Below are positions 7,303 through 32,249 of a DNA stretch of 32,333 nt, in pieces. Within the stretch, counting starts at the first letter, position 1; each line of letters begins with the position of its first letter. The notes beneath the pieces are model-generated. The model was not told the origin of the DNA, did not search any database, and saw only the letters and a list, made by a program, of their open reading frames with translations. The stretch covers positions 1 through 32,333 of the IMG/VR virus record IMGVR_UViG_3300037502_000839; one strand, given 5' to 3'. The translations under genes and the position numbers were made by a program. The stretch comes from a virus.

Positions 7303-8535
7303 ATGTCAAATGCGCGTCGTTCTAAAAAACGTGCCGATAGAACTTCCCCCGGAGATAGCACAGCATCTGATCCGGTTGGGCGCAGCCCACGAAGAAGAAT
7401 CCTTTGGTACTCAAACGCACCGTGGTGCGCCACCGGCTACGGTACGCAAACCGCGCAAACCGTCCCCCGACTCCAAAAGCAAGGACACGAAGTTGCGATC
7501 CACGCAAACTACGGACTTGAAGGCTCGGGAACAAAGTGGCGTGGCACGGAAATCTACCCGAAAGGGCTAACGCCGTATTCGGATGATGTGATGGTTGCCC
7601 ACTATCAGCATTGGGCGCACGGCAATCCCGGTATGCAACCGTTGCTAATGACCCTGTTTGATGTGTGGGTTTTCAAGTCTCCGTCGCTGGAGTCGGTTCC
7701 GTCTATCGCGTCGTGGGTTCCGGTCGATCACACTCCGACCCCACCGGAGGTTTTGGCGTGGTGCAGCCGACCGAACGTCACCACCATTGCCATGTCACAG
7801 TTCGGGCAGAAGATGTTGCACAACGCCGGGGTTGACGCGCTGTACGTTCCGCACGGTATCGAACCGATCTTCAAACCGACCTCGAGCGTTCAGGGTGTTT
7901 CGGGTCGCAAGATCATGGGCGTTCCCGAGGATGCGTTCGTGGTGATGATGAACAGCGCAAACAAAGGCGCACACCCCCCGCGCAAGGCGTTCGGGGAAAA
8001 TCTGTTAGCGTTTGCAATCTTCGCCAAGTCGCACCCGGATGCGTACCTGTATCTGCACACGGAACAGCAGGGTTTCAACGGGGTGAACCTGCCGGTGCTA
8101 GCAAAAGCGTGTGGAATCCCCGAGAATCGGCTCGTGTTCGCGGATCAGTATGCTGTCCGTAATGGAATGCCACAAGAAGTTTTGCCTGCGTTGTACACGG
8201 CTGCTGATGTGCTTTTGGCTGTCTCAATGGGTGAAGGGTTTGGAATCCCGGTCGTGGAGGCGCAGGCGTGTGGGACTCGCGCTATTACGTCTAATCAGAC
8301 CGCGCAACCTGAACTGAACGGGCATGGCTGGCTGGTCGATTGTCAGCCTTCGTGGGATGTGGCGCAGAAATCATGGTTCCACACCCCGTATGTCCGGGAG
8401 ATCGTGTCTGCCCTAGAGATGGCGTATGAAGCCCGTCAGAGCGTCCACAAGCCTTCTGTAGAGTTTGCGAGCCAATATGGTGCGGATCAGGTTTTTAGAA
8501 ACTTTTGGGAACCTGTGATGGCGGTGCTTCCCTAA
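7303..8535 (+). CDS. Glycosyltransferase, GT4-like (GT-B fold)
   Basis: A 410-residue protein with a recognisable body from about residue 33 (ILWYSNAPWCATGYG, the N-terminal Rossmann strand and loop) to the C-terminus. EGFGIPVVE at 311-319, followed by AQACGT, is the E-x7-E nucleotide-sugar signature of GT4 retaining enzymes. It would transfer a sugar from an activated donor, probably to a virion protein or cell-wall component. The first 30 residues are basic, serine-rich and unlike the family; the other reading frame looks more gene-like there (see the overlapping ORF at 7310). GAAGGG precedes the ATG at 7303. It is the first gene of the sugar cassette. Confidence 0.88.
   Translation: MSNARRSKKRADRTSPGDSTASDPVGRSPRRRILWYSNAPWCATGYGTQTAQTVPRLQKQGHEVAIHANYGLEGSGTKWRGTEIYPKGLTPYSDDVMVAHYQHWAHGNPGMQPLLMTLFDVWVFKSPSLESVPSIASWVPVDHTPTPPEVLAWCSRPNVTTIAMSQFGQKMLHNAGVDALYVPHGIEPIFKPTSSVQGVSGRKIMGVPEDAFVVMMNSANKGAHPPRKAFGENLLAFAIFAKSHPDAYLYLHTEQQGFNGVNLPVLAKACGIPENRLVFADQYAVRNGMPQEVLPALYTAADVLLAVSMGEGFGIPVVEAQACGTRAITSNQTAQPELNGHGWLVDCQPSWDVAQKSWFHTPYVREIVSALEMAYEARQSVHKPSVEFASQYGADQVFRNFWEPVMAVLP
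7310..7570 (+). CDS. Candidate small protein overlapping the glycosyltransferase start
   Basis: An ATG at 7310, one frame away from the glycosyltransferase, opens an 86-codon frame. Its first 31 residues (MRVVLKNVPIELPPEIAQHL, then IRLGAAHEEES) look like an authentic small phage protein, with codon use like the rest of the genome. After about 7402 the translation looks like a shadow of the glycosyltransferase. The switch falls exactly where the glycosyltransferase begins to resemble its family. Possible explanations are a separate gene that lost its stop, a frameshift that split one protein, or ribosomal slippage at the A-rich run near 7323-7329. The start is shared with a weak ribosome site. 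Confidence 0.3.
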   Translation: MRVVLKNVPIELPPEIAQHLIRLGAAHEEESFGTQTHRGAPPATVRKPRKPSPDSKSKDTKLRSTQTTDLKAREQSGVARKSTRKG

Positions 8536-21828: not shown

Positions 21829-22773
21829 ATGAAACGGATCAAGAAACCCGTCCACGGAAGCCTTGAGTGGTTGCAGGTACGTCACCGCGACGAGAACGGG
21901 CGCGTGATCTTCGGTGCGTCCGAAGCCGGTGCACTCATGGGCAAATCGGAATACACCACACTCGCAGATTTGTGCGTTGCGAAGTTGGGTGAACCCGAGG
22001 TGACCGAACCAACGCGGGCGATGCTGAAAGGCATCTACTTTGAACAGGGGCTGATTGACTTTGCAGCCGACGAACTTGGGTTGCCGTTGGTGACACCTGA
22101 CGAGATGTACGCGAAGGGTCGATTTATTGTGACCCTTGACGGTGCGTGGATGGTGAACGATCATCCTGAGCGAATCGTGGAATGCAAGGTGACTTCGTAC
22201 AGCGTGACAACGGAACAGGATTTGCCGGTGTCGTGGGTGTTGCAGGGTCACGTTCAGCAATGGGTGACGGGTGCGCCGGTCACGTTCGCGGTGTTTGACC
22301 GTCAACAAAACTTGTCGCTGATTGACATGACGTATGACCCGGTGTGGGCAGATCAGATCGTGACGATGGCAGAGTTTGTCGGCGCATCGTTGGACGAAGG
22401 CGTGATCCCCGAGAATGCGTGGGAAGTGATGACTGCCGGGTTGGTGCAGAAGGTGTACGCACCGGAACCGGGCAAGGCAATCGTTGCCGACGATGAGTTG
22501 ATCAACTACATCGTGGACTTGGAGAACACGAAGCGTCTGATCAAGGAACTGGAAGCGGATAAGGCGATCAGCGAGGATCAGATTGCGCGTCGAATGTTGG
22601 ACGCGGAAACCGTCACCGATGCCGAGGGTCACGTTCTTCTGTCGTGGAAGCAGCAGAAGGGTCGCACCTCGTTTGACTCCAAGCGGTTCGCGCAGGAACA
22701 TCCGGAACTGTTTAGCGAGTACAGCCGTGAGGGTTCACCGTTTCGTGTGATGCGATTCGGAAAGGCCAAGTGA
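21829..22773 (+). CDS. YqaJ-type recombination exonuclease
   Basis: A 314-residue protein with the YqaJ/lambda exonuclease layout: WLQVRH at the start, FGASEAGALMG (the G-x-S-E motif), LKGIYFEQGLIDF, LDGAWMVND and IVECKVTS (acidic residues and the ExK), then WVLQGHVQQWVTG. It would resect double-stranded DNA ends 5' to 3'. It is paired with an ERF-type annealing protein one gene downstream, forming a two-component recombination system. ATG follows AAAGAGGG after an intergenic leader. All motif residues of the PD-(D/E)xK core appear intact. Confidence 0.9.
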   Translation: MKRIKKPVHGSLEWLQVRHRDENGRVIFGASEAGALMGKSEYTTLADLCVAKLGEPEVTEPTRAMLKGIYFEQGLIDFAADELGLPLVTPDEMYAKGRFIVTLDGAWMVNDHPERIVECKVTSYSVTTEQDLPVSWVLQGHVQQWVTGAPVTFAVFDRQQNLSLIDMTYDPVWADQIVTMAEFVGASLDEGVIPENAWEVMTAGLVQKVYAPEPGKAIVADDELINYIVDLENTKRLIKELEADKAISEDQIARRMLDAETVTDAEGHVLLSWKQQKGRTSFDSKRFAQEHPELFSEYSREGSPFRVMRFGKAK

Positions 22774-22916
22774 TGACGAACGAAGAAAACATTGAACGGA
22801 TCGCTGATGCGCTGGAGGTGTTCGGGAACCTGTATCTCGTCTACCTGTACGCAGCGTTTGGCGCAGAACACATTGACGCATTGATCGACACGATTACAGA
22901 AGGGGAAACAGAATGA
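22773..22916 (+). CDS. 47-residue protein between exonuclease and ERF genes
   Basis: The protein is acidic and helical: MTNEENIERIADALEVFGNL, then YLVYLYAAFGAEHIDAL and an acidic end. The ATG shares its A with the exonuclease stop (TGATG), and its stop overlaps the next start (ATGA), so it is fully coupled on both sides. AAAGG lies about 10 bases upstream. Hydrophobic residues form an amphipathic helix rather than a membrane segment. It may modulate the flanking recombination proteins; no family is recognised. Confidence 0.6.
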   Translation: MTNEENIERIADALEVFGNLYLVYLYAAFGAEHIDALIDTITEGETE

Positions 22917-23620
22917 GCAGCATTGTCGGCCTGCTATCGCAGGTCATGGAAGAGGTCGGCGCGGTCAAAAAAGGAGACCGCAACGATCATCAGAAGTTCA
23001 ACTTCCGGGGCATTGACGCGGTGGTAAACGCTGTGTCACCGGCCTTGCGGAAGCACAACGTGGTGATCACGCCACAGGTGTTGGATTACCAGTACGAAAC
23101 TGTGCAGGTCGGGAATCCGAGCAAGAACATGGCAAGCGTTCGGGTGATGGTGCGCTACACCTTCCACGCCCCGGACGGTTCGACGCTGGAAACAGTTGTG
23201 CCAGCCGAATCGTTTGACTCGGGCGACAAGGCCACCGCAAAAGCGATGAGCGTGGCGTTCCGTACCTGCCTGCTACAAACCCTGTGTTTGCCCACAGACG
23301 ACGCAGACCCGGACAGCCAGTCCTACGAGCGTTCGGCGCATCCGACCGCACACAGGCCTGTACAGAGGCAGATGACGGGCGACAGGGAACCGGGCGCACC
23401 AGCACCAGTAGTGCCTATCGGTGGCAGCAAACCGGCATCGGAGAAGCAGGTGGGGATGGTGAAGAAACTGGTGCGCGAACTCGGGTTCGATCAGCAGACC
23501 GCCAAGAACTTCATCACCGCGACAATCAGTAGGGAGATCGGATCAACCACCGAACTGACCCTTGCCGAGGCTTCGGCGGTCATTCAGGCGTTGCAGGAAG
23601 CGAAAGGAGACAGCGAATGA
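22913..23620 (+). CDS. erf: ERF-type single-strand annealing protein
   Basis: A 235-residue recombinase. KFNFRGIDAVVNAVSPALRKH (about 25-45), the YTFHAPDGSTLETVVPAE strand pair and SGDKATAKAMSVAFRTCLLQ ending with LPTDDADPDSQ are characteristic of ERF proteins, which anneal complementary single strands during phage recombination and genome circularisation. The C-terminal part (about 170-235, EKQVGMVKKLVRELGFD) is a smaller helical domain. GAAGGGGAAACAG provides the ribosome site. It pairs functionally with the YqaJ-type exonuclease. Confidence 0.92.
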   Translation: MSSIVGLLSQVMEEVGAVKKGDRNDHQKFNFRGIDAVVNAVSPALRKHNVVITPQVLDYQYETVQVGNPSKNMASVRVMVRYTFHAPDGSTLETVVPAESFDSGDKATAKAMSVAFRTCLLQTLCLPTDDADPDSQSYERSAHPTAHRPVQRQMTGDREPGAPAPVVPIGGSKPASEKQVGMVKKLVRELGFDQQTAKNFITATISREIGSTTELTLAEASAVIQALQEAKGDSE

Positions 23621-25019: not shown

Positions 25020-25470
25020 CGTTGTGCAACATCTGAAGGACGTTGATGCGATCCTTACTGACTACCAATGGTCGCACGTCACGTTGCAACCTTCGGTCGT
25101 AGCGATGATCTGCCGTATGGCAGCGAACGAAATAGAGAACCTACGGGCAGCACAGGCCTTGCCACGCATGACTGACCCGGCAACGTCGCGGAAGGCTGCA
25201 GAAAACATCAAGGTTCGATCCGGTTCGCAACGCCACACCCTGCTGGTTGCCTACGGTGATCACGGATCACTAACGGATGAGGAGGCAGGGGAGATCACCG
25301 GGCTTCGTCGTCCCGGTGTCTGCTACTGGAAGCGGTGCAGCGAACTACGCGCAGCCGGATACATCGAACCCACGGGGCAGACACGGCTTTCAAGTGTCGG
25401 GGAAGCACAGATGGTGTGCAGGCTCACCGAGTTGGGTAGGGGGGTGTTGGGTGTCAAACAACTGGCGTGA
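25012..25470 (+). CDS. Winged-helix DNA-binding protein
   Basis: A 152-residue protein. The C-terminal region (about 55-145) has TDPATSRKAAENIKVRSGSQ, then HTLLVAYGDHGSLTDEEAGE, ITGLRRPGVCYWKRCSELRA and GYIEPTGQTRLSSVGEAQMV, the layout of a winged helix that is shared by many phage and DpnI-type C-terminal domains. The N-terminal 50 residues form a separate helical part. ATG 25012 is inside the previous gene. It probably controls phage or host genes; the operator is unknown. It directly precedes whiB. Confidence 0.78.
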   Translation: MSDVVQHLKDVDAILTDYQWSHVTLQPSVVAMICRMAANEIENLRAAQALPRMTDPATSRKAAENIKVRSGSQRHTLLVAYGDHGSLTDEEAGEITGLRRPGVCYWKRCSELRAAGYIEPTGQTRLSSVGEAQMVCRLTELGRGVLGVKQLA

Positions 25471-25765
25471 CCGCGCAGCCTGCAAAGGTGTAAGCGTGGA
25501 AAACTACGATACGTTTTTTCCGAACACGAACGGCCCGAAGAAAGACAAGTGGGACGCTGCATATAGTTTCTGTCAGCGTTGCCCGGTGCGTCGGGAATGT
25601 TTGTTGTTGCAGTTGCGTTCGACGGATGCGATTGATGACAAGGCCGGTGTGTTCGGTGGGCTGACCCCGAGTGAACGGAAGTGGTTTCGTCGTGGTCGGA
25701 GGGATTTTGTGAAGGAGACTGTGGACGGGGAACTTGTGCCTGTTGGTAGGTTTGTTGGGCTATGA
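25451..25765 (+). CDS. whiB: WhiB-family iron-sulfur transcription regulator
   Basis: A 104-residue protein with the four Cys of the 4Fe-4S cluster (Cys11, Cys41, Cys44, Cys50: ACKG, FCQRCPVRREC), the GVFGG turn at 66-70 and a basic C-terminal region (RKWFRRGRRDF) that contacts DNA. WhiB proteins occur only in actinobacteria and their phages; they bind the host sigma factor region and change transcription, and phage members can block host functions such as septation. Start is GTG 25451 inside the upstream gene, which ends 20 bases later. This gene is the strongest host evidence in the window. Confidence 0.92.
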   Translation: MSNNWRDRAACKGVSVENYDTFFPNTNGPKKDKWDAAYSFCQRCPVRRECLLLQLRSTDAIDDKAGVFGGLTPSERKWFRRGRRDFVKETVDGELVPVGRFVGL

Positions 25766-26187
25766 CTGAACTGCTCGGCCCGACGAAAGGGTATTGCGCC
25801 TGCAACTGCGGTCTTTTTGGGACGCTCAGGAAACGTCCCGAGGGTCACATTCGTGGATGCAACTGCCCGAAATGCCGTGGCAAACGCAACCGTCAAAAAG
25901 GTGACAGCAAGGCGCGTCAGGCTCGAAAAGCGTTAGGCATTACCGGGGTGAACTCACGACACGAGGAGGTGTGGGGTGGTGATGTGCGTGTCGAAGTGAA
26001 AGCCGGGGCGCAAGTCAAACCTGTCGTCACCGCGTTTCTTCGTTGCGAGATACAAAGTGAACAGCATCGTCCGATTGGTGACAATCGTCCGTTCATGCTT
26101 GTTGTGATGCCTGACGGGTCGAAGGATGGTTTTGTGGTGATGCGTCTCGCTGATTATGTGAGGCATCACGGCATTGAACCGGTGTAG
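25762..26187 (+). CDS. Zinc-ribbon protein with possible nuclease core
   Basis: A 141-residue protein. The N-terminal part has CACNCG, then GCNCPKCRGKRNRQKGD (two Cys pairs, zinc-ribbon-like, with a basic patch). The later part has EVWGGDVRVEVKAGAQ, whose D..E.K pattern resembles a PD-(D/E)xK nuclease core, then CEIQSEQHRPIGDNRPFMLV and VMPDGSKDGFVVMR. Proteins of this type are common in actinophages, and some are annotated as resolvase-like; a Holliday-junction or replication-related role is only inferred. It overlaps whiB by 4 bases. Confidence 0.65.
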   Translation: MTELLGPTKGYCACNCGLFGTLRKRPEGHIRGCNCPKCRGKRNRQKGDSKARQARKALGITGVNSRHEEVWGGDVRVEVKAGAQVKPVVTAFLRCEIQSEQHRPIGDNRPFMLVVMPDGSKDGFVVMRLADYVRHHGIEPV

Positions 26188-26203
26188 TATTAGAGAAATA
26201 AAT

Positions 26204-26234
26204 GACCCCGGCACAGCGCAAACTGCCCGGGGTC
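26204..26234 (+). terminator. Hairpin between nuclease-like and initiator genes
   Basis: GACCCCGG-CA and TGCCCGGGGTC form a stem of about 10 pairs with one bulge and a loop of about 10 bases. No T tract follows, so it may be a weak terminator, a processing site, or a structure controlling the initiator region. A ribosome site, AGGAG, follows 15 bases downstream. Confidence 0.45.
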
Positions 26235-26259
26235 TGATCCAACTAGATAGGAGTTGAAT

Positions 26260-26307
26260 GTGCAGATTGTAACCGTTCCACGCATGATCGTGGTGCATTG
26301 TGTCTAG
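26260..26307 (+). CDS. 15-codon leader peptide candidate
   Basis: GTG 26260 has AGGAG about 6 bases upstream and encodes MQIVTVPRMIVVHCV before TAG 26305-26307, overlapping the initiator start by 8 bases. The initiator itself has no good ribosome site, so translation may be coupled to this peptide. An inverted repeat CCACG/CGTGG lies inside it at 26278-26293. Too short to prove. Confidence 0.3.
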   Translation: MQIVTVPRMIVVHCV

Positions 26308-27061
26308 GCGGTTGGCTGCTGATAACTACTTCAGCATGATCCCCGAGTGGGTGCTAGATGCCGAGATCAGCGCAAAAAGTGTTCGGCTGTATTGCGTTCT
26401 GCAACGGTATGCGAACAGTCACGGGGTCTGTTTTCCGTCACGCGCGACGCTGGCAGAACGGTGCAAGTGTTCGTTGCGCACGGTCGATCAGGCCGTTGAC
26501 GAACTGCAGGCCATCGGTGCGCTGCTTGTGAAGAAGGTGCGTTCGGATCGCGGTGATTGGGCTAACAACGAATACACGGTTGTTACTTCTGACCCGTTGG
26601 GGGTAGTGCAAAAAACGACACTACCTAGTGCAGAAAACGACACTACGGGTGGTGCAGAAAATGACACTACCGGTAGTGCAGAAAACGTCCCACTAACCAA
26701 AGCCATAGATAACGAAAGCCATACAAACCAAAAGGCAACTGCTAACGCGATTGCTCGGGAGTGGTGGGAAGCACAAACAGATCGACCACTCACTCCATTC
26801 ATGGCACTAGTCAAGATCGTGGAACGGGCATTGAAAGCCGGGTACGAGGCCGACCGGGTGCAACGAGCCTTAGCCTCATTCGCAGTTGTCCCCTCCGCTT
26901 CACAACTGGAGAAGCAGATGAAGGGGATCGTCTACGGTGCGAAACGCACCGATGATCGCACCGCCGAACTAGCACGACGGGCGTTCGCAGCAGCCGAAGA
27001 ATACCAACGTGAACAGCAAGCAATCCGCGACAACGAAGGGTGGGACAGCGATGAAGTATGA
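26300..27061 (+). CDS. Replication initiator-like protein (HTH, lambda O-like role)
   Basis: A 253-residue protein. Residues about 1-75 form a helix-turn-helix initiator domain (MIPEWVLDAEISAKSVRLYC, then PSRATLAERCKCSLRTVDQA and VDELQAIGAL). A Thr/Asn/Asp-rich linker at about 103-133 is encoded by four iteron-like DNA repeats. The C-terminal part is helical and charged (about 150-250) and may bind helicase or its loader. In lambda, the O gene contains the origin iterons that O protein binds; the same layout is seen here. GTG start. The HTH domain is common to phage replisome organisers. Confidence 0.8.
   Translation: MSRRLAADNYFSMIPEWVLDAEISAKSVRLYCVLQRYANSHGVCFPSRATLAERCKCSLRTVDQAVDELQAIGALLVKKVRSDRGDWANNEYTVVTSDPLGVVQKTTLPSAENDTTGGAENDTTGSAENVPLTKAIDNESHTNQKATANAIAREWWEAQTDRPLTPFMALVKIVERALKAGYEADRVQRALASFAVVPSASQLEKQMKGIVYGAKRTDDRTAELARRAFAAAEEYQREQQAIRDNEGWDSDEV
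26603..26698 (+). repeat. Four iteron-like dyad repeats, candidate replication origin
   Basis: Units of about 22-24 bases begin near 26605, 26627, 26651 and 26675. Each has AGTGCA(G/A)AAAACGACACTAC or a close variant; the first contains GTAGTG and CACTAC as inverted arms 10 bases apart. The first unit is in a different coding frame from the other three, so the DNA, not the protein, is conserved. An A-rich stretch follows (26700-26745), fitting an unwinding region. The repeat is read directly; origin function is inferred by analogy with lambda ori. Confidence 0.7.
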
Positions 27062-27554
27062 CGATGTTGAAGGCCTGCTGGCGATGATCCGTGCCTACGA
27101 TCAGCGGATCGGCAACACGCCCACGGTGGTGGATGCGTGGACAAAAGCGTTGAACCCTGAGATTACGTTGGCGTGGGCATCGCAGGTTGCTATCGACTTC
27201 TACGCCAAGTCGGGTGACCGTGCGATTGGCGTTGCGACGTTCAACGCACGGTGGAAAGAGAAGAAGCGTGAGCAGTCCATGTTGCGTGGCCTACCAGCAT
27301 TCTCCGGTACAAAAGTGGAGAAGGATCGTGCGCGTTGGTGGATGATGCAAGGCATCATTGAAGGCGTAGACGAATGCAACACGGCACACAGCCGTGACCC
27401 GTTGATCGCCGGGATACTTAGGTTGCGTGTCGATTATCACATCGCAGCCGGAATGCCCATCGCACAACGGGATCACAGGGTTTTGTTCCCTGCATTGGAT
27501 TGGGCATGGTTTGACGCGGTAGCACCGGAGTACGGGCAGGCGTTAGGGTACTGA
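27051..27554 (+). CDS. Possible helicase loader or replication partner
   Basis: A 167-residue protein. The N-terminal half (VEGLLAMIRAYDQRIGNTPT, DAWTKALNPEITLAWASQVA, YAKSGDRAIGVATFNARWKE) fits small actinophage proteins that follow the initiator gene, in the position of lambda P. It ends with DWAWFDAVAPEYGQALGY. ATG 27051 overlaps the initiator by 11 bases and follows GAAGGGTGGG. No ATPase motif is visible, so it would work as a loader or adaptor rather than a helicase. The role is inferred from position. Confidence 0.55.
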   Translation: MKYDDVEGLLAMIRAYDQRIGNTPTVVDAWTKALNPEITLAWASQVAIDFYAKSGDRAIGVATFNARWKEKKREQSMLRGLPAFSGTKVEKDRARWWMMQGIIEGVDECNTAHSRDPLIAGILRLRVDYHIAAGMPIAQRDHRVLFPALDWAWFDAVAPEYGQALGY

Positions 27555-27561
27555 TCATGGT

Positions 27562-27607
27562 GCGCGTCAGAAAGGTTCACCCCCTGCTGATTGTCGGCTA
27601 GACGCGC
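27562..27607 (+). promoter_or_regulatory. Inverted repeat before the secreted lytic enzyme
   Basis: GCGCGTC (27562-27568) and GACGCGC (27601-27607) are perfect 7-base arms 32 bases apart, in the 94-base gap after the loader-like gene. A 14-codon frame (27557-27601) lies between them but has no strong support. It could be an RNA structure or a protein binding site. Confidence 0.3.
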
Positions 27608-27648
27608 TGGATGTGTCGCCCCCGTGGGCTTGACTAAGGAGACTCAAA

Positions 27649-28086
27649 ATGTTGAAGCGTGTTTGCGCTGTTCTGTTTGCCATATCCCTGTTCGCTTCGC
27701 CGGTCGCCGCGAAGAAGGACGTAACCCCGGATTGGGTACGCCAGCGATACAAGGCCGGGGAGAACTGCAAGGAGTGGGAATACTTGTTCCGCCAATACAA
27801 ACTGCCCGTTGTATTGTTTTCGTACACGGCTTATCGGGAGTCGCGGTGTCGTGCGTCGGCGGTGAATGCACGGTGGGACAAGCACGGGAATCTTGTGTGG
27901 ACGTTGAACCGGAACGGTACGTTCGACAGCGGTTTGTTGCAAATCAACTCGTCGTGGCGAACGGTGACCCGGCAGGTATGCGGTGGCGATCTCACCGAAC
28001 TGTTCGACCCGGTGTGTAACGTGAAAGTCGCTGCCCACCTCTACCACGGGTCGGGCGCAGGACATTGGGGCTACAGAACCCCCTGA
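27649..28086 (+). CDS. Secreted lysozyme/transglycosylase-like enzyme
   Basis: A 145-residue protein. Residues 1-21 (MLKRVCAVLFAISLFASPVA, then A) form a Sec signal peptide with an A-x-A-like cut before KK. The mature part has YRESRCRASAVN with catalytic-type Glu64, DSGLLQINSSW and FDPVCNVKVAAHLYHGSGAG, the lysozyme-like/SLT layout. Four Cys (40, 67 and two later) suit two disulfide bonds outside the cell. AAGGAG gives a strong ribosome site. It is far from the lysis cassette; roles in wall modification, superinfection exclusion or lysis are possible. Signal and catalytic motif are seen; role is inferred. Confidence 0.85.
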   Translation: MLKRVCAVLFAISLFASPVAAKKDVTPDWVRQRYKAGENCKEWEYLFRQYKLPVVLFSYTAYRESRCRASAVNARWDKHGNLVWTLNRNGTFDSGLLQINSSWRTVTRQVCGGDLTELFDPVCNVKVAAHLYHGSGAGHWGYRTP

Positions 28087-30407: not shown

Positions 30408-30563
30408 ATGAAACGACATACCCTGCTGAACGCGATCCATTTCCTGCAGAAGGTTGTGGTGCGCGGTGACGATGAACAACTGCTGGTGCAAACAGTTGAG
30501 GAACTACAGACTGAAGTGAACAAACGAGCGAAGGGGAATCATCGTGAGGTTACTGAAGGGTGA
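30408..30563 (+). CDS. Small coiled-coil-like protein before the methyltransferase
   Basis: A 51-residue protein (MKRHTLLNAIHFLQKVVVRG, then DDEQLLVQTVEELQTEVNKR and a charged end). The start lies 9 bases after TATTGT and has no clear ribosome site; it may be nearly leaderless. It overlaps the methyltransferase start by 20 bases. Function unknown. Confidence 0.5.
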   Translation: MKRHTLLNAIHFLQKVVVRGDDEQLLVQTVEELQTEVNKRAKGNHREVTEG

Positions 30564-31737
30564 CTGCCGGGAACAACTAAAACTGCTACCGGACGAGTCG
30601 GTGGACAGCATCGTGACCGACCCACCATATGAACTTGGCTTCATGGGCAAATCGTGGGACGCATCAGGGATCGCATACAACGTCGAGGTGTGGCGAGAGT
30701 GTTTGCGTGTGTTGAAACCGGGCGGTCATCTGTTGGCGTTCGGCGGTTCGCGTACTTACCATCGGCTTGCGTGTGCGGTGGAAGATGCCGGGTTTGAGAT
30801 CAGGGATCAGATCATGTGGGTGTATGGCTCGGGGTTTCCGAAGTCGTTGGATGTTGGCAAAGCAATCGACAAGATGCACGGTGCAGAACGTGACACGCTG
30901 ACCGAAGAAGTGTCAGACATTTTCGGGAACAGAACTGAACGCTTGGAACGTCCTGCTTTTGGTATTGGTGCAAATGGCAGCGCGTTCAATGGTCATGCAG
31001 AAGGCGCGATGGCACGGGAAACTGCCCCGGCTACTGATGATGCTAAGAAATGGGATGGTTGGGGTACAGCCCTGAAACCGGCGCATGAACCTGTTGTGGT
31101 GGCACGGAAACCGCTGGCTGGTACGGTCGCACAGAACGTGTTGCGTTACGGCACAGGCGCAATCAACATCGACGGATGCCGGGTCGAAGGGAAACTTGAA
31201 GGCGATCCGAACAGATTTGCGAAAACTGATGGGGGTTCGTTCAATGCGTTTTCCCAATCTGCACCAGTTGTGAGGAGTGATGGTCGTTGGCCTGCGAACT
31301 TTATCCATGACGGTTCGGACGAGGTACTGGAACTGTTCCCCGAAACAAAACCCGAGACTTCGGCTGCAAGGTTTTTTTATTGTGCGAAAGCGTCTAAGGC
31401 TGAACGCAACGCAGGACTAGAACACCTGCCAAAACAAAGCGCAGGAATCGGAGACACTAGGCCAAGCGGAGATTTCAACCAGCGTCTAGGAACGAATGAC
31501 AAACCGGCACAACCTGTAGCCAATCATCACCCCACTGTAAAACCTATAGACCTGATGCGCTACCTGATACGTCTCGTCACACCACCCAACGGAACAGTTC
31601 TTGACCCGTTCGCAGGATCAGGAACAACCCTTGTCGCAGCAATACATGAACACATGAACCCGATAGGGATAGAACTAACCGAAGAGTATTGGCCGATCAT
31701 TGAAGCAAGAACAGATCACGCTAGAAACAAAACGTGA
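30544..31737 (+). CDS. DNA methyltransferase (DPPY, beta class)
   Basis: A 397-residue methyltransferase. DPPY at 26-29 and FAGSGTT at 356-362, with VKPIDLMRYLIRLVTPPNGT before it, give the beta-class order (catalytic motif first, SAM motif last) of N6-adenine or N4-cytosine DNA methyltransferases. The region of about 100-310 between them is long and probably includes the target recognition domain. It would protect phage DNA from host restriction; no restriction enzyme is beside it. GTG start with AAGGGG upstream. The recognised DNA sequence cannot be read from the protein. Confidence 0.92.
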   Translation: MRLLKGDCREQLKLLPDESVDSIVTDPPYELGFMGKSWDASGIAYNVEVWRECLRVLKPGGHLLAFGGSRTYHRLACAVEDAGFEIRDQIMWVYGSGFPKSLDVGKAIDKMHGAERDTLTEEVSDIFGNRTERLERPAFGIGANGSAFNGHAEGAMARETAPATDDAKKWDGWGTALKPAHEPVVVARKPLAGTVAQNVLRYGTGAINIDGCRVEGKLEGDPNRFAKTDGGSFNAFSQSAPVVRSDGRWPANFIHDGSDEVLELFPETKPETSAARFFYCAKASKAERNAGLEHLPKQSAGIGDTRPSGDFNQRLGTNDKPAQPVANHHPTVKPIDLMRYLIRLVTPPNGTVLDPFAGSGTTLVAAIHEHMNPIGIELTEEYWPIIEARTDHARNKT

Positions 31738-31949: not shown

Positions 31950-32249
31950 ATGCCAATCCCCAAACCCTGCCTCACCTGCGGAGAACCCACAACCAACGGG
32001 TCACGCTGCACCGACTGCGAAGCAGAACGACAAGCAACACGCAACGCCAAACGCATCCACTACAAAGGCGACTACAAAAAGTTGGCTGCACAAGTCCGAG
32101 CGAACGCATACCAATGCTGGATATGCGGAGGCGTAGGCAAACCCGACGATCCGTGGCAAGCCGACCATGTACTACCCGGAGACCCCAACAGCCCACTCAG
32201 AGCAGCCCACCGATCCTGCAACGCACGACGCGGAAACGCAAGCCGATGA
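31950..32249 (+). CDS. HNH endonuclease (right end)
   Basis: A 99-residue HNH nuclease. The N-terminal CLTCG and CTDC pairs form a zinc ribbon; then CWICGG, WQADHVLPGD, SPLRAAHRSCNARRGN give the HNH core (Asp-His, Asn, His). A small single-domain HNH at the end opposite the terminase is a usual partner for cos cutting in actinophages. It is distinct from the left-end HNH, which has a longer N-terminus. Confidence 0.88.
   Translation: MPIPKPCLTCGEPTTNGSRCTDCEAERQATRNAKRIHYKGDYKKLAAQVRANAYQCWICGGVGKPDDPWQADHVLPGDPNSPLRAAHRSCNARRGNASR

Follow-up and report, generated by a model that had tools for sequence, protein, structure and literature searches.

Does the gene for a phage replication initiator also contain the DNA at which replication begins? 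This question is raised by a stretch of 32,333 nt, called the window below (IMG/VR record IMGVR_UViG_3300037502_000839, positions 1 to 32,333), for which an earlier note had claimed iteron-like dyad repeats inside an initiator gene and a candidate origin at that place. The repeats, their dyads, a second element next to them, conservation at the level of the DNA, covariation of the repeat arms and the gene neighbourhood were computed here. We conclude that the locus is very probably a theta-replication origin embedded in the phage's own initiator gene, with iterons, a candidate unwinding element and, in the next gene, a likely helicase loader.

The initiator gene and its repeat units

The gene runs from 26300 to 27061 on the + strand, as do all features of the locus described below, starts with GTG and encodes a protein of 253 aa belonging to the HTH_36/phrog_270 family. 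Its identification as a replication initiator gene was upheld by family membership: Pfam HTH_36 matched the N-terminal part of the protein (E 1.2e-11, 44.6 bits against a cut-off of 25), and among the PHROG profiles phrog_270, 'replication initiation protein', gave E 9e-21 and the O-like phrog_391 gave E 2e-13. Relatives of the protein carry the annotation 'RepA-like replication initiator'; RepA_N itself was absent among the Pfam matches of the initiator up to E 1, and a PDB sequence search with the initiator profile yielded nothing significant. In the AF2 model, the DNA-binding winged helix at the N terminus (about residues 8-100, codons 26321-26599) was confidently predicted, with pLDDT mostly 79-97 per 10-residue block. 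The linker that follows (residues 100-138, codons 26597-26713) is the site of the DNA elements and was mostly predicted to be disordered, with pLDDT below 50 in segments 100-108, 113-118, 121-127, and 129-138. The C-terminal part (residues 139-249, codons 26714-27046) is helical and, if lambda O is a guide, may bind a partner. The best structural neighbours of the winged helix included the RepA N-domains of staphylococcal plasmids (4pt7, Z 10.6 over 98 residues), a match that is not set apart from generic winged helices, others of which scored Z 8-10.

The repeats with inverted arms described for the linker region proved to be real, with four 24-bp units at 26602-26698 whose starts (26602, 26624, 26648, and 26672) are spaced by 22, 24, and 24 bp. 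Iteron 1 (26602-26625, GGTAGTGCAAAAAACGACACTACC) has perfect 7-bp arms in the arrangement GGTAGTG-N10-CACTACC; iteron 2 (26624-26647, CCTAGTGCAGAAAACGACACTACG) has TAGTG/CACTA arms; iteron 3 (26648-26671, GGTGGTGCAGAAAATGACACTACC) has a single arm mismatch; and iteron 4 (26672-26698, GGTAGTGCAGAAAACGTCCCACTAACC) is degenerate, retaining TAGTG/CACTA arms around a longer spacer. The 20-mer that the units were said to share occurs exactly in unit 2, and units 1, 3, and 4 differ from it by at least one base. When searched with up to 3 mismatches, a degenerate unit pattern matched units 1-3 alone in the 32 kb and nothing in 100 shuffles, and the exact 22-mer unit had no match anywhere in IMG/VR. 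Units 2-4 are mutually in frame and encode a SAENDTTG-like peptide; with its spacing of 22 bp, unit 1 is in another frame, as had been stated.

Conservation of DNA and of peptide

As a stricter null, synonymous codons were exchanged among positions of the gene, which leaves the protein unchanged. Of 1000 such permutations, 3 reached the dyad score of the window and 5 its repeat score. When the same permutation was applied to 24 non-redundant genes recruited through their proteins, a repeat excess at the 5% level or below was found in 17, and in 7 the repeat statistic was not above the peptide-fixed null.

Searched with a profile of the N-domain, IMG/VR yielded 23 loci, the nearest of which (L014) is 70% identical to the window in that domain; scans of IMG/VR and GTDB genomes with the single protein gave no close relatives. 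In nearly all 23 loci, and likewise in Arthrobacter phages and more distant records, the corresponding linker contains its own set of repeats. Their unit sequences vary by lineage, and an exact geometry is common to one subgroup. In phage Kovu, which is 37% identical in the HTH region, four units of another sequence are spaced by 25, 24, and 23 bp and change frame. The pattern of the subgroup, GGTAG-N14-CYACCTAG-N19-GGTRG, was scanned over all of IMG/VR and gave 31 matches, 31/31 of them on the same strand in ORFs that encode the initiator domain (E < 3e-18), a number to which descent contributes since this subgroup keeps the site in one frame. As a control, 257 Gb of bacterial and archaeal genomes were scanned with the same pattern; the single match was in an unrelated Saprospirales protein. 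The argument from frames is drawn from unit 1 versus units 2-4, from Kovu, Laroye, and L019, and from the codon permutation. The motif definitions used in these comparisons were derived from overlapping data.

We compared the inner arm pairs 6-19, 7-18, and 8-17 in 76 distinct dyad units from 25 phages. Watson-Crick pairs occupied 139 of 228 cells, against 78.6±7.4 with the right halves shuffled, the cells not being independent because the units of one phage are related; controls slid by 1-3 bases gave at most 80 of 228. G.U pairs at the covarying positions numbered 5 against 15.2±2.8 in the shuffled sets, a deficit that is partly a by-product of the greater number of Watson-Crick pairs. Covariation of this kind would suit binding of a protein dimer to a symmetric site in duplex DNA. 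As for the protein that reads the units, Asp at the start of the recognition helix was found in 8/8 initiators with GCCG arms and 0/17 without them. On the tree Asp and GCCG each changed three times and three independent pairs were concordant, which is not significant by a sign test (p 0.25). The association was noticed after the fact and then checked on new sequences, in which Asp was present in 2/2 with GCCG and 0/10 without. These sequence comparisons point to the initiator itself as the reader of the units, without proving it.

The view that DNA rather than peptide is conserved thus gained support from codon permutation, frame changes and arm covariation in relatives. Loss of the repeats with retention of the peptide, which the earlier note had named as evidence against it, is unlike what was found in the relatives, in which the DNA layout is kept, frames and peptides differ, and arms change compensatingly. 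On the reading favoured here, the linker peptide encoded by the repeats would serve as a flexible tether and be free to absorb the constraint on the DNA.

The A-rich element, the neighbouring genes and a proposed mechanism

The A-rich stretch reported to follow the units was confirmed and is itself a tandem 11-mer, AACNANARCCA. Box 1 (26695-26705, AACCAAAGCCA) is a candidate unwinding element; box 2 (26711-26721, AACGAAAGCCA) lies 16 bp past it, so that the boxes occupy two frames. The window holds no sites beyond these two on either strand. On its top strand the stretch has A 0.39 and T 0.13, so it is rich in A with A+T amounting to only about half, and it carries the conserved tandem boxes. 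A looser form, AACNANA[AG]NCA, defined from the same sequences in which it was counted, occurred 28 times in the linker region of the protein-recruited genes, against 3.4±1.4 after codon permutation (maximum 9 in 2000 permutations); these boxes were in all three frames (13/8/7) with a period of 16, 15, or 14. The independent check was a blind scan of IMG/VR for the 16-bp tandem. It gave 64 matches, of which about 24 look like chance, 34 were in initiator ORFs in three frames, one more was in a truncated initiator (L109), and 5 (L080, L083, L088, L103, and L125) were in non-coding DNA directly 3' of a stand-alone HTH_36 gene, with a small ORF between gene and boxes in L080. Positions 2254-3932 of L088 contain the stand-alone HTH_36 gene, the non-coding boxes, a small gene and then an IstB/DnaC-like ATPase gene, an arrangement that could be read as an origin module with its repeats outside the gene.

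It was predicted beforehand that the gap following each named relative of the stand-alone HTH_36 genes would contain boxes. Two AAC boxes with a distance of 17 bp were found there in Bacillus phage KLEB27-1; Paenibacillus phages Unity, Tripp, and C7Cdelta each carry a single strict box in that gap, accompanied by near-boxes at 15 bp. The occurrence of the boxes in coding and non-coding contexts indicates that the element follows the initiator whether it is translated or not. AAC-type boxes are present in Kovu and Laroye, and strict boxes are absent from several Arthrobacter phages (Bolt007, Altadena, and Bumble). Five Arthrobacter phage loci without strict boxes (L003, L004, L005, L012, and L013) have DnaA-box-like TTATCCACA and TGTGGA motifs about 80 bp after the repeats, inside the initiator genes, which is a possible alternative arrangement for strand opening. 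More tentatively, and with a little less than an even chance of being right, we suggest that tandem AACNANARCCA with a period of 14-17 bp is an undescribed sequence-specific code for strand opening in HTH_36-initiated phage replicons of Actinobacteria and Bacillales, with a conserved reader. The box would then be conserved while the neighbouring iterons turn over with the recognition helix of the initiator, and it would work in intragenic or non-coding positions; the reader might be a host factor or, within the initiator, an unvarying surface that binds ssDNA.

The start of the next gene (27051-27554) overlaps the stop of the initiator gene. A homologue of its product is encoded beside the L014 initiator (E 1.7e-39), a weaker one is Laroye gp89 (E 2e-4), and the corresponding position is annotated 'helicase loader' in Arthrobacter phages Kovu and Bolt007. 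In the relative L015 a gene of the Inhibitor_G39P family occupies that position (E 3e-6, 28.1 bits against a cut-off of 22). The window protein itself matched neither Pfam nor the G39P model, and a fold search, in which G39P was outside the chains aligned, gave no useful match. The position and the distant homology fit a helicase loader, for which the product is a candidate. PolA, PolC, and DnaB were not detected above cut-off in the window or in 11 relatives; this is consistent with the claim that the phage has no DNA polymerase gene, in a record that may be a fragment. In L036 (2893-5350) the initiator gene has GCCG units, and the gene after it encodes, in place of a loader, a protein of 456 aa that, on a reading of its sequence, resembles a DnaB-type helicase.

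The actinophage lineage claimed for the window was supported by a WhiB-family transcription factor at 25277-25765 (Pfam E 3e-14) and by WhiB in 6 of the 11 relatives tested; WhiB matches in the control were confined to Corynebacterium, and the combined occurrence indicates an actinobacterial host. The suggested peak in GC skew near 26.6 kb was absent: skew was positive throughout the window, with neither peak nor turn at that place, and is uninformative. DnaA boxes (TTWTNCACA) numbered 0 in the window against 2.3 expected, giving no sign of a DnaA-dependent origin.

Several other genes were noted around the locus. Upstream of the replication genes, 21829-23620 holds a recombination module with a RecE-like exonuclease and an Erf-like annealing protein side by side. 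A small SLT/lysozyme-like protein is encoded immediately after the loader candidate (27649-28086), and small lysozyme-like ORFs, by sequence reading, appear to come after the initiator in L045, L048, and L053. An N6/N4 DNA methyltransferase gene lies at 30544-31737, and L019 has a methyltransferase-like ORF directly after its initiator; a glycosyltransferase gene (7303-8535) lies within the structural region. HNH endonuclease-like genes are found at both ends of the record (21-572, by Pfam HNH, and 31950-32249, by PHROG); in a circularly permuted genome these might be the HNH located beside the terminase.

We propose that dimers of the HTH_36 initiator would bind the four dyad iterons of about 24 bp, which are roughly two helical turns apart, and that the resulting complex would strain the adjacent A-rich DNA, so that the tandem AACNANARCCA boxes open as an unwinding element. 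Host DnaB would then be brought to the single-stranded DNA by the protein encoded next, likely a helicase loader, and replication would pass to the replisome of the host. Binding, melting, loading, and use of the site as an origin are steps that we infer; iteron binding has indirect support, and opening of the boxes and delivery by the loader are suggested by analogy.

Other explanations of the repeats were weighed against the same results. An autoregulatory operator, through which the HTH protein would control its own transcription or copy number with no role in an origin, would account for dyads that suit a dimeric HTH protein and for a helix-arm association that fits binding by the initiator. 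However, the position of the units, about 300 bp into the gene, is not that of a promoter, no promoter-like site was found in 25700-27700 with a simple consensus, and the conserved A-rich tandem element and adjacent loader candidate better fit an origin. We therefore regard an operator in place of an origin as improbable; as the two are not exclusive, an added autoregulatory role alongside the origin is possible. The in-frame arrangement of units 2-4 could reflect repetition at the peptide level, or the linker may have undergone a recent tandem duplication, which would also account for the similarity of the units; in either case there would be no function at the DNA level. Yet the frame differs for unit 1 and for the second AAC box, the signal was not reproduced by peptide-fixed codon permutation, the geometry is kept between phages while arm sequences change compensatingly, and the boxes recur in non-coding DNA, all of which make this account highly improbable.

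The region also folds well as RNA (z -3.3), as it would if the units formed hairpins in the initiator mRNA that acted in antitermination or translational control; but dyads of whatever origin fold as hairpins. The G.U pairs at the covarying positions, being fewer than in the shuffled sets, give no indication of the tolerance typical of an RNA stem, an Rfam search of the region gave no match, and the AAC element lies outside coding sequence in the Bacillus and Paenibacillus phages and in related contigs. Control through RNA hairpins thus seems very unlikely indeed, and we favour an origin within the initiator gene.

Significance and comparison with known systems

An origin within an initiator gene is already known from lambda, SPP1, and pSK41; the phage group described here and its shared tandem box appear to be undescribed in the open-access literature searched. 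The results would bring within that layout a large group of phages, most of them uncultured, for which we found no mapped origin in the literature searched; many carry WhiB and are therefore probably phages of Actinobacteria. Origins of this type could be found by DNA pattern alone, as the 31/31 matches in initiator genes illustrate, and the AAC box, which recurs in many distant phages, is a candidate unwinding element shared by origins inside and outside coding sequence. The group offers a natural data set for the coevolution of initiators and iterons, and bears on compatibility and exclusion between phage replicons and on the building of replicons for actinobacteria.

Plasmid pSK41 has four Rep boxes centrally in rep, and the linker is dispensable for function of the protein (PMC5703833). 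The window resembles RepA_N plasmids of this type in its four central repeats and in having their N-domain folds among its best structural neighbours; unlike theirs, its initiator has no RepA_N Pfam match, and the fold match is not clearly above other winged helices. In phage SPP1, oriL, with direct repeats and an AT-rich unwinding element, lies in gene 38, and the loader gp39 is encoded next (PMC6316719). The window similarly has repeats and a candidate unwinding element in the initiator gene, and a relative, L015, carries an Inhibitor_G39P-family gene after its initiator, whereas SPP1 encodes a DnaB-type helicase, gp40, and none was found in the window; this likeness is drawn from description rather than sequence. 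Likewise by description, the window resembles the RepA replicons of the cluster A mycobacteriophages Miko and Rachaly in having an actinophage initiator with an N-terminal HTH. For these an origin upstream of or within repA, in lambda-like fashion, has been suggested, by authors who found no repeats in the mycobacteriophage regions they examined (PMC7157519). Arthrobacter phages Kovu, Bolt007, and Laroye share with the window a homologous HTH domain and carry their own repeats in the corresponding linker, although the unit sequences differ and those records annotate no origin at the initiator.

The comparison with lambda made in the earlier note holds. In lambda and Stx phages the middle of O contains iterons and an AT-rich region (PMC7466680), and in lambda O four iterons at 20, 24, and 23 bp are followed by an A-rich stretch. 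The two differ in several respects: the similarity of the window initiator to O is at the profile level only (phrog_391), the host of the window phage is probably actinobacterial, and the A-rich part of the window is a defined tandem 11-mer that is absent from the lambda stretch examined. The next gene in lambda is the loader gene P, and in the window it is the loader candidate, which is not recognisably P. Like lambda, nevertheless, the window has dyad iterons of similar spacing in the linker-coding middle of its initiator gene, with A-rich DNA directly after them.
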